NCBI GenBank assembly: GCA_030698575.1
Contig: JAUYMQ010000574.1
Coordinates: 1-7,236, forward strand
Direction: 5' to 3'
Source: Deltaproteobacteria bacterium
GTDB lineage: Bacteria; JAUYMQ01
DNA length: 7,236 bases
Numbering within the stretch: position 1 is the first letter of the stretch; each line of letters opens with the position of its first letter. The position numbers and the translations under genes are program-made. The notes below the pieces were generated by a model that was not told where the DNA came from, did not search any database, and saw nothing but the letters and a program-made list of their open reading frames with translations. Of this stretch, positions 1,375 through 7,236 are shown in pieces.

Positions 1375-1476
1375 GGCGTAGACAACCGAATGGCGCGTCC
1401 GGTACCAGGGTGATAGCCTGAGCAACGGGCGGCGCTCTCCGGCCGTCGCCGCGACCCGCGATTGCCGAGCCGCCCC

Positions 1477-2412
1477 ATGCCGCGCCATGCCGCCATCGAT
1501 ATCGGGACCAACACCGTATTGCTGTGCGTTGCCGACTGGGACGGGCGGCGGCTGGAGCCCCTTCTCGATCGATCGGTCATCGCCCGCCTGGGCGAGGGGC
1601 TCGAGGCCTCGGGGGTCCTTCGAGAGGAAGCCATGGTCCGCGCGCTGGAGGCGCTGGACGCGCACCTGAAGGCGGCCCGGGCCGAAGGTTGCGAAGTGGT
1701 GGCCGCCATCGGGACCGCGGCGCTTCGCGACGCCGGTAACGCCGATCAATTCGTTGCCGAGGCGAAGCAGCGTTTCGGGCTTGAAATCGAAGTTATATCG
1801 GGCGAGGAAGAAGCCCGCCTCGCCTTCATGGCCGTCGCCCGGGGCCGCGAAGAAGAAGGCGTGCCGGCCGCGGGACGGCGACTGGTGATGGACATCGGGG
1901 GCGGCAGCACGGAGTTCATCCAGGGCGAGGGGCAGAGCGTTCGAGCCCTCCGTAGTCTGCCGCTTGGTTCGGTGCGTCTCACCGAGCGATTCCTCCGGGG
2001 CGATCCGGTCAAGCCCGGCGAACTCGCTGCGTTGCGAGAAGCCGTGCGCGAGGGCCTCGCGGTCCTTCCGGCCGGCGAGGGCGGGGGCGCTGAGATGGTG
2101 GGCGTCGCCGGGACGAACACGACGCTTGCCGCGATGAAGCGCCGCCTCCCGCGCTACGACGCCGCTGCCATCCGGAAAACCCGGCTCACGCGAGTTGATC
2201 TGGATGCGCTCATCGGAATCCTGGCAGAGCGCACCGTGGCCGAGCGCAGGCAACTGCCGGGCCTCGAGCCGGGACGAGCAGACGTGATTCTCGCTGGGGC
2301 CGTGATCGCCCGTGAGGCGATGGGGCATCTGGGTTTCGAGGAAATGGGAGTTTCGGACAGAGGCGTGCGCCACGGCGCGATCTACCGACTTCTGGAGAGG
2401 CTGCAAGCGTGA
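1477..2412 (+). CDS. Ppx/GppA family phosphatase (short form)
   Basis: This is a 311-residue member of the actin-like ASKHA Ppx/GppA family, which removes terminal phosphate from inorganic polyphosphate or converts pppGpp to ppGpp. The first phosphate-binding loop AIDIGTNT is at residues 6-13, GEEEAR at 109-114 holds the likely catalytic glutamate (Glu110), and the second loop DIGGGSTEF is at 139-147. [12 protein letters not shown] (209-220), [15 protein letters not shown] (261-275) and VSDRGVRHG (292-300) complete the core. It ends there, without the C-terminal HD-like domain of the ~500-residue E. coli enzymes, so it resembles the short two-domain form. ATG 1477 places AIDIGTNT close to the N-terminus as usual. 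No clear Shine-Dalgarno precedes it, and an in-frame TTG at 1462 would add only five residues. The 169-bp upstream gap holds the thiolase terminator and a TAGACA hexamer (1379-1384) without a convincing -10 partner. Ppx and GppA activity cannot be told apart by sequence here. Confidence 0.93.
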
Positions 2413-5591: not shown

Positions 5592-6053
5592 TCAGGCGCC
5601 GAGCCCATCCAGCACGCTCAGCAGCTCAGCGTCGTTCGGCCGCATGATCGAGAGGGGTTCGACGTCCTTGTGCCGGACGGCGCCCTCCTTGTCGATGATG
5701 AAAGTGGCGCGGCGGCTGTGAAGGCCGAGGGGGCCCATGACGCCGTAGGCCCGGGCAACCTCCTTCTTGTCGTCGGCGAGGATGGGAAAGTTCAGGCCGA
5801 GCTTGGTCGAGAACTTCTGCTTCGAAGCCTGCGGTTGCACGCTCACTCCGAGCACCTGCGCGTTCTTCGACTGAAACTTCGACAGATCGTCGCGAAAGGA
5901 ACAGAGCTCTTTGGTGCAAACGGGCGTGAAATCGGCCGGGTAGAAGGCCAGGACCACGTTCTTCTTCCCCCTGTAATCCGAAAGCCTGACCTTTTTCCCG
6001 TCCTGATCGGCCAGTTCGAAATCGGGCGCCTTCTGACCCACCTCGACGCTCAT
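5592..6053 (-). CDS. Peroxiredoxin, BCP/PrxQ-type thiol peroxidase
   Basis: This is a complete 153-residue AhpC/TSA-fold peroxiredoxin that reduces hydrogen peroxide and organic hydroperoxides with thiol-derived electrons, probably in the cytosol because no signal peptide is present. The active site [15 protein letters not shown] contains the family PxxxTxxC pattern (Pro39, Thr43, peroxidatic Cys46). Cys51 lies five residues on, the resolving-cysteine spacing of atypical 2-Cys BCP/PrxQ enzymes. Conserved arginine is supplied by Arg114/Arg115 in [13 protein letters not shown] (112-124). The start ATG (complement of 6051-6053) has a good ribosome binding site TGGAGG (complement of 6061-6066). 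The acidic zinc-ribbon gene ends 27 bp upstream on the same strand, so the two are likely one operon driven from the promoter near 6460-6489. The reductant (thioredoxin or other) is not shown. Confidence 0.95.
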
Positions 6054-6080
6054 ACGCGTGCCTCCAGTCTGCCTGCTGAG

Positions 6081-6383
6081 TTAGTCGTCGTCCTCGAGGT
6101 CATCGTTGTCGTCTTCGTCGTCGAAATCATCATCGTCGTCGAAGTCGTCATCGTCGAAGTCTTCGAAATCATCGTCGTCCCCGTCTGACGCGGACTCGTC
6201 TGACGCGTCGCTCTCCTCGTCGTCATCCTCGGCCTCGTCGTCGTCCTCGGGCTCGTCGGGGTCATTTCCCTCGTCGATGTCGGGGTCAATTTCCTCGCTC
6301 GAGCAGAAGGGACAGCTCGCGATATCGCTCTCCCGCTCGTCCATGTAGAAACGTTTGTGGCAGTCGCCGCAGTAGTAATTCAT
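6081..6383 (-). CDS. Small zinc-ribbon protein with extremely acidic C-terminal tail
   Basis: This is a 100-residue protein of unknown function. The first ~27 residues form a compact zinc ribbon with two CxxC knuckles (Cys5/Cys8 and Cys24/Cys27). All lysine, arginine and histidine residues fall in the first 20 positions. The remaining 73 residues contain 50 Asp or Glu, with phenylalanines spaced through aspartate runs near the end (FEDF, then DDDDF and DDDDDF blocks), so the tail should be disordered and strongly negative. The architecture, and the KRFY segment between the knuckles, recall the FYDLN_acid (TIGR02300) type of small proteins; that likeness is inference and the DLN residues are absent. 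The start ATG (complement of 6381-6383) has only a weak AGG. A sigma70-like promoter lies about 75 bp upstream, and the peroxiredoxin gene follows 27 bp downstream in an apparent operon. Metal, nucleic-acid or basic-protein binding are all possible. Confidence 0.82.
   Translation of the reverse strand: MNYYCGDCHKRFYMDERESDIASCPFCSSEEIDPDIDEGNDPDEPEDDDEAEDDDEESDASDESASDGDDDDFEDFDDDDFDDDDDFDDEDDNDDLEDDD
6084..6255. repeat. Imperfect GTC/ATC-type trinucleotide tract (coding)
   Basis: On the plus strand this stretch is a run of gtc, atc, ttc and cct-type triplets, the complement of Asp and Glu codons GAC/GAT/GAA/GAG in the acidic tail. GAC and GAT are mixed, so it is not a pure microsatellite. 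The low complexity opens long spurious frames on the plus strand (poly-Ser and poly-Val/Ile) that are not genes. In-frame gain or loss of triplets would alter tail length without breaking the gene. Confidence 0.75.
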
Positions 6384-6459: not shown

Positions 6460-6489
6460 ATACTAGGGCGGCGATCCGGCGGGTGTCAA
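6460..6489 (-). promoter_or_regulatory. Sigma70-like promoter for the zinc-ribbon/peroxiredoxin operon
   Basis: On the minus strand a perfect -35 TTGACA (complement of 6484-6489) is followed after 18 bp by TAGTAT (complement of 6460-6465, 4 of 6 matches to TATAAT). Transcription would start near 6453, about 70 nt before the zinc-ribbon start codon. Position, orientation and an exact -35 in GC-rich DNA make this a credible promoter. Confidence 0.65.
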
Positions 6490-6643: not shown

Positions 6644-7236
6644 ATGTCGGATTTCTACATTGCGACCGCTATCTTCATCGCGGTCTACGTCTTCATCGTC
6701 ATCGAGAAGTGGCACAAGACAGTGATCGCCCTCGCAGGGGCGAGCCTGGTCCTGTTCTTCAAGATCGTCTCGCAGCACGAGGCGTTCCAGACGGTGGAGT
6801 TCGGTGTCGACTGGAACGTGATCATCCTGCTCGTCAGCATGATGATCATCATCAGTATCATGCGGGAGACCGGGGCATTTCAGTGGACCGCCATCAAGAG
6901 CGCCAAGCTGGCCAAGGCCCGTCCCTTCCGGATCATGATAATCCTGTGCGCCGTGACCGCGGTGCTGAGCGCCCTCCTCGATAACGTCACGACGGTTCTT
7001 CTTCTGGCGCCGGTGACCATCCTCCTTGCGACGCAGCTAGAGATCGATCCCGTCCCCTTCCTGATCGCCGAGGCGCTCTCGTCGAACATCGGCGGCACGG
7101 CCACTCTCATCGGCGATCCTCCCAACATCATGATCGCCAGCCGCGCGCAGCTGACTTTCAACCAGTTCCTGTTCAATCTTGGACCCATCATCGTCGTGAT
7201 CCTCATCGTTTTCATGCTTACGCTTCGCCTGATCTG
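6644..7236 (+). CDS. ArsB/NhaD-type ion transporter, N-terminal part
   Basis: The first 197 residues are present; the frame is open to the window edge and family members are usually above 400 residues, so more than half is missing. It is a multipass inner-membrane permease of the ArsB/NhaD (ion transporter) superfamily, which also includes the human P protein OCA2. Hydrophobic segments fall near 5-20, 27-42, 57-73, 97-130, 136-160 and 178-197. Diagnostic motifs are LSALLDNVTTVLLLAPVT (108-125) and SNIGGTATLIGDPPNIMI (147-164), the conserved substrate-site loops. ATG 6644 is preceded by GGAG (6631-6634) at workable spacing and by a sigma70-like promoter. Sodium/proton exchange, arsenite export or organic-anion transport are all found in the superfamily; no ars genes or citrate genes are visible to decide. 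The gene is divergent from the peroxiredoxin operon. Confidence 0.9.
   Translation, partial: MSDFYIATAIFIAVYVFIVIEKWHKTVIALAGASLVLFFKIVSQHEAFQTVEFGVDWNVIILLVSMMIIISIMRETGAFQWTAIKSAKLAKARPFRIMIILCAVTAVLSALLDNVTTVLLLAPVTILLATQLEIDPVPFLIAEALSSNIGGTATLIGDPPNIMIASRAQLTFNQFLFNLGPIIVVILIVFMLTLRLI

Follow-up and report, generated by a model that had tools for sequence, protein, structure and literature searches.

An unnamed bacterial family of predicted zinc-ribbon proteins with hyperacidic tails, found in two deep lineages

Does the small gene found just ahead of a peroxiredoxin gene in a deltaproteobacterial contig serve peroxide defence, as an earlier note on this DNA had proposed, or does it make a protein with a role of its own? 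The gene lies on the minus strand of the window, by which we mean the whole stretch of 7,236 nucleotides that was analysed, as an open reading frame with an ATG start (6081..6383) that encodes 100 aa. Its product has the N-terminal part MNYYCGDCHKRFYMDERESDIASCPFCSSEEID and then continues into a tail made almost purely of Asp and Glu. The cysteines are at positions 5, 8, 24 and 27, giving two CxxC pairs (5/8 and 24/27) in a zinc-ribbon region of residues 1–33 (6285..6383, minus strand; M-N-x-Y-C-x-D-C-x-K-x-F ... C-P-x-C-x-S-E). The acidic tail, residues 28–100 (6084..6302, minus strand), holds 37 Asp and 13 Glu, that is 50 acidic residues out of 73, and no Lys, Arg or His. Both knuckles and this tail composition had been described in the earlier note, and the open reading frame and our residue count agree with it. 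We infer a predicted zinc-binding knob joined to a floppy acidic tail; a single-sequence AlphaFold model of the protein is of low confidence (mean pLDDT 54.7).

As judged from its relatives, the open reading frame is a real small gene and not a chance ORF, since in four homologues from another phylum the ribbon is retained and the tail, though different in sequence, is again acidic and devoid of Lys, Arg and His. The placing of the protein among the uncharacterised small zinc-ribbon proteins with acidic tails is borne out. Two homologues came from a first search of 389 diverse bacterial genomes, and a profile search then found one homologue in each of the four sampled genomes of the phylum to which those two belong. 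The four homologue ribbons are 50–56% identical, and when the window protein is included thirteen positions are invariant in 5/5 ribbons from the two phyla (M1, N2, Y4, C5, D7, C8, K10, F12, C24, P25, C27, S29 and E30). All homologues have hyperacidic tails, and the tails of the five members vary in sequence and length (29–74 aa) and consist of 65–72% Asp/Glu, never with Lys, Arg or His. It had also been claimed that phenylalanines are set regularly in the tail. This does not hold for the window tail, where the phenylalanines at 73, 76, 81 and 87 are separated by gaps of 3, 5 and 6 and are not regular in a shuffle test (p 0.95), whereas hydrophobic residues are spaced evenly beyond shuffles in three of the four homologue tails (p 0.0008, 0.006 and 0.03).

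By sequence comparison, the window protein belongs to a genuine bacterial family that has no name yet and is seen in two deep lineages. The family is rare in our samples, which cover only a little of the known diversity. The window genome is the sole member of its phylum among the genomes sampled, and no convincing member was found elsewhere in the approximately 1,000 genomes: zero additional members came from the further samples, which comprised 385 bacteria (largely shared with the first set), 195 genomes from the same phylum as a deltaproteobacterial MAG, 396 from an acidobacterial phylum and 23 with related peroxiredoxins. Weak profile matches in other genomes were rejected, as they were isoleucyl-tRNA-synthetase-like or were FmdB ribbons without acidic tails. 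One ribbon from the acidobacterial-phylum sample (MNKVKEYFCRNCNKTFQIAAKDEKVICPMCNSQDV; L128, genome G737, contig C107, 3563–3649, minus strand) is near the present family in sequence but has a Cys/Lys-rich tail and no acidic one. Plasmids and phages gave no match to the window protein, and no relatives turned up when viral and genome contigs were scanned for its eight-mers, although such scans would mostly miss the four homologues and so carry little weight. In the literature we found nothing on such a protein.

Which known family, then, is the ribbon closest to? The window protein scores under the cut-off of every Pfam and NCBIfam model, and the nearest curated family appears to be the FmdB ribbon (TIGR02605), below cut-off. 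Of the curated NCBIfam models, TIGR02605 matches best in each of the five members, every time subthreshold (best E 0.0028), and it scores 16.4 bits on the full-length window protein and 19.7 bits on the ribbon alone against a cut-off of 31.3. In an hhalign comparison the family aligned with an FmdB set at 98.6% and a score of 63.2, where Cys-fixed column shuffles reach 25.4. The same family profile had been used to gather the FmdB set, which inflates this score, but TIGR02605, as an independent result, agrees with it. The FmdB zinc ribbon (CxxC_CxxC_SSSS; Pfam Zn_ribbon_8, PF09723) shares with the window family the pattern M-x-x-Y-x-C-x-D-C-x-K-x-F ... C-P-x-C-x-S-E with its two CxxC knuckles. 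The loop between the knuckles is, however, shorter in the window family, and FmdB tails are Ser/Gly-rich or short and basic where the window tail is Asp/Glu-rich.

The earlier note had pointed to kinship with FYDLN_acid (PF09538, TIGR02300), and a divergent member of that family would indeed have the same overall plan, a small zinc ribbon followed by an acidic C-terminal tail, together with a C-x3-F-Y element. An hhalign comparison of the window family with 17 FYDLN_acid proteins reaches 90% probability, but at a score of 27.6, which is barely above the Cys-fixed column shuffles (24.8) and far under the FmdB score. Pfam and NCBIfam models, TIGR02300 included, give no FYDLN_acid match for the window protein at E≤1. 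It carries KRFYMDE where the 17 members mostly have KFYDL, it has no FYDLN motif, and it lacks the basic, Pro/Ala/Lys-rich linker that precedes the acidic part in FYDLN_acid. The spacing between the CxxC pairs differs as well, with 15 residues in the window protein and 14 in its homologues versus 13 in most of the 17 members. Moreover, PF09538 has no match at E≤0.1 in the whole window genome, though the ribbon gene is present there and a Caulobacter control was positive, and the four homologue-bearing genomes gave no FYDLN_acid match either. Membership was rejected on the HMM results, the motif, the spacing and the profile comparison with shuffles; we consider it largely refuted already, and hardly credible.

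Other known systems share some features with the window protein. The LysW carrier protein is likewise a small acidic protein with two CxxC, but the window protein has neither EDWGE, the C-terminal motif of LysW, nor lysine/arginine biosynthesis neighbours. A small LysW-type-carrier-like ORF with an acidic C-terminal end (CPTCDAEIPVSKEEDGESTCCPYCGTTLKLRLQGETWEAEEDY; L105, contig C316, ~9682–9753, minus strand) is present elsewhere in the window's genome assembly (G000). RNA polymerase delta (RpoE) of Firmicutes resembles the window protein in the acidic tail at its C-terminal end; this tail is long and disordered, and it follows a folded HARE-HTH N-terminal domain and not a zinc ribbon. The window protein has no HARE-HTH match in Pfam or NCBIfam. 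The top profile matches in the PDB include subunit P of archaeal RNA polymerase (E 0.12), which we regard as a lead only.

The gene following the ribbon gene in the window (5592..6053, minus strand) encodes a PrxQ/BCP-type peroxiredoxin (AhpC-TSA; PF00578, 2.3e-46, 157 bits; PRK09437, 96.6 bits against an equivalog cut-off of 140), in which the motif CTKELC has two Cys with four residues between them, as in BCP/PrxQ. Its ATG (6053) comes 27 bp after the stop of the ribbon gene (6081) and 7 bp after a Shine-Dalgarno-like GGAGG (6061..6065, minus strand). A sigma-70-like promoter-like site, TTGACA-18-TAGTAT (6460..6489, minus strand; 10/12 in a consensus scan), lies 77 bp before the ATG of the ribbon gene, in a region where the scan found three promoter-like sites against 0.3 expected. 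The coordinates and the scan thus agree with the earlier description of a gene 27 bp upstream of a BCP-type peroxiredoxin, on the same strand and behind a promoter. The two genes are bounded downstream by a convergent TPR gene and upstream by a divergent gene for a CitMHS/ArsB-superfamily permease (6644..7234, plus strand; PF03600, 7.5e-54), which runs off the contig. The short gap and the orientation of these flanking genes make a two-gene transcript plausible in the window genome. Elsewhere in the window, a Ppx/GppA exopolyphosphatase-like gene (1462–2412, plus strand; TIGR03706, 254.9 bits against a cut-off of 307) sits between thiolase and acyl-CoA dehydrogenase genes.

The spacing, the shared promoter-like site and the two-gene unit would all suit a peroxide-defence factor specific to the window peroxiredoxin. 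We nevertheless find such a factor very improbable, as a ribbon and acidic-tail gene is present in none of the 80 best peroxiredoxin loci and the family is absent from 23 of the genomes behind those loci. A survey of the homologues gave the same picture: the four homologous loci (L114, L115, L119 and L120, from one phylum and two families, 5.5 to 17.5 kb read each) contain no peroxiredoxin. The linkage is not conserved, which counts against the peroxide-defence inference of the earlier note, and the constant upstream gene is instead lpdA.

In all four loci the gene directly upstream, in the same orientation, is lpdA, by TIGR01350 (above cut-off) the gene of a true dihydrolipoyl dehydrogenase (Lpd); the intervals measure 99, 122, 154 and 268 bp. 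This holds although the remaining flanks are not alike in the two families. Counting the window, 5/5 loci have a TTGACA-type promoter-like site immediately before the ribbon gene. In L115 and L119, of one family, the site is TTGACA-N16-TAATAT, 50–55 bp upstream and with the same spacing in both; in L114 and L120, of the other family, TTGACA-N17-TGATAA/T was read by eye, and the consensus scan itself did not report it. We suggest that in each of the five loci the ribbon gene is probably transcribed from a promoter of its own. An lpdA operon was rejected as the simple reading, since the 99–268 bp separation and these separate promoter-like sites make a common operon improbable. Downstream, one family has a gene for a FAD_binding_3 flavoprotein next, 27 bp away in one locus and 16 bp in the second, and in the other family no same-strand gene follows. 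What appears to be constant is thus an autonomously expressed ribbon gene, with the peroxiredoxin as one of several followers and no constant co-transcribed partner. We also note that a conserved pair of genes for an AAA (MoxR/Mg-chelatase-like) and a VWA-like protein adjoins the ribbon gene in two loci (L115:5654–8679 and L119:8224–11270), the VWA-like protein having no Pfam match at 1e-10, and that ispH (LytB) is near lpdA in three of the four loci (L114, L115 and L120).

Thiol-disulfide enzymes do recur near the ribbon gene, Lpd in 4/4 homologous loci and the peroxiredoxin as the next gene in the window; counted as independent observations these come to about two, and they were selected post hoc. 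In mycobacteria, Lpd and peroxiredoxin are coupled through AhpD/SucB. The protein could accordingly be a thiol-redox accessory, in which the CxxC knuckles would form a zinc-thiolate switch whose oxidation frees Zn and alters a partner, or, in a variant, in which the thiols would trade electrons with the neighbouring enzyme (peroxiredoxin in the window, Lpd in the other phylum). However, Lpd is probably not in an operon with the ribbon gene, no homologous locus holds a peroxiredoxin, the four loci come from one phylum and make up approximately one independent event, and ribbons with four Cys tend to be structural. We find no support for peroxide defence as such; a broader thiol-redox role is conceivable, if rather unlikely in our view, and the zinc-thiolate switch is the main rival to the adaptor that we favor below. 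The composition of the tails, polyaspartate without basic residues in 5/5 members, could alternatively suggest a metal buffer or store, with Zn held by the ribbon and divalent cations bound at low affinity by the Asp/Glu arm. This we consider improbable, as it leaves the conserved non-Cys residues of the ribbon unexplained and as no metal-transport neighbour is conserved, the divergent CitMHS-type permease being found in the window only.

Our preference, which is a tentative one, is for an autonomously expressed adaptor, whose FmdB-like zinc ribbon would dock on a partner and whose disordered polyanionic arm would act electrostatically; here we infer zinc binding, disorder, docking, the electrostatic mechanism and the partner. 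The protein would be a stand-alone adaptor of ~11 kDa, in which a four-Cys ribbon with one Zn leads into an intrinsically disordered polyanionic arm, its Asp and Glu interspersed with aromatic or aliphatic residues. The ribbon would have a single specific docking target, a protein or a complex, and the arm (net charge ~-50) would cover a basic surface that binds nucleic acid, either by mimicking nucleic acid or by competing electrostatically, a manner in which the acidic tail of RNA polymerase delta is also thought to act on a basic surface. As the gene seems to have its own promoter, it would probably be expressed constitutively, and the co-transcribed gene would differ between lineages. The thirteen invariant ribbon positions, which go beyond the four Cys, suggest a specific docking surface, and a constant Asp/Glu content with no Lys, Arg or His over a variable tail sequence is what would be expected of a charge-driven disordered arm. 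The evenly spaced hydrophobic residues in three members, the promoter-like sites before the gene in all five loci, the varying followers and the nearest match to FmdB also favour this reading. Against the adaptor, it does not explain the recurrent thiol-disulfide enzymes.

Small proteins that join a zinc ribbon to an acidic tail are met repeatedly in bacteria, and to our knowledge almost none of them has an assigned function. The ribbon described here is highly conserved across two deep lineages, yet it is above cut-off in no Pfam or NCBIfam model. With tails of acidic-aromatic repeats, the family could provide deep lineages that are without FYDLN_acid with a nucleic-acid mimic bound to RNA polymerase or the ribosome, or with a zinc switch for thiol redox that is linked to Lpd and peroxiredoxin, a picture that we think unlikely as it stands. 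Our results suggest that the plan of a ribbon with an acidic tail has an origin on an FmdB-like ribbon in addition to the one in FYDLN_acid, and this hints that the tail may have a shared physical role.
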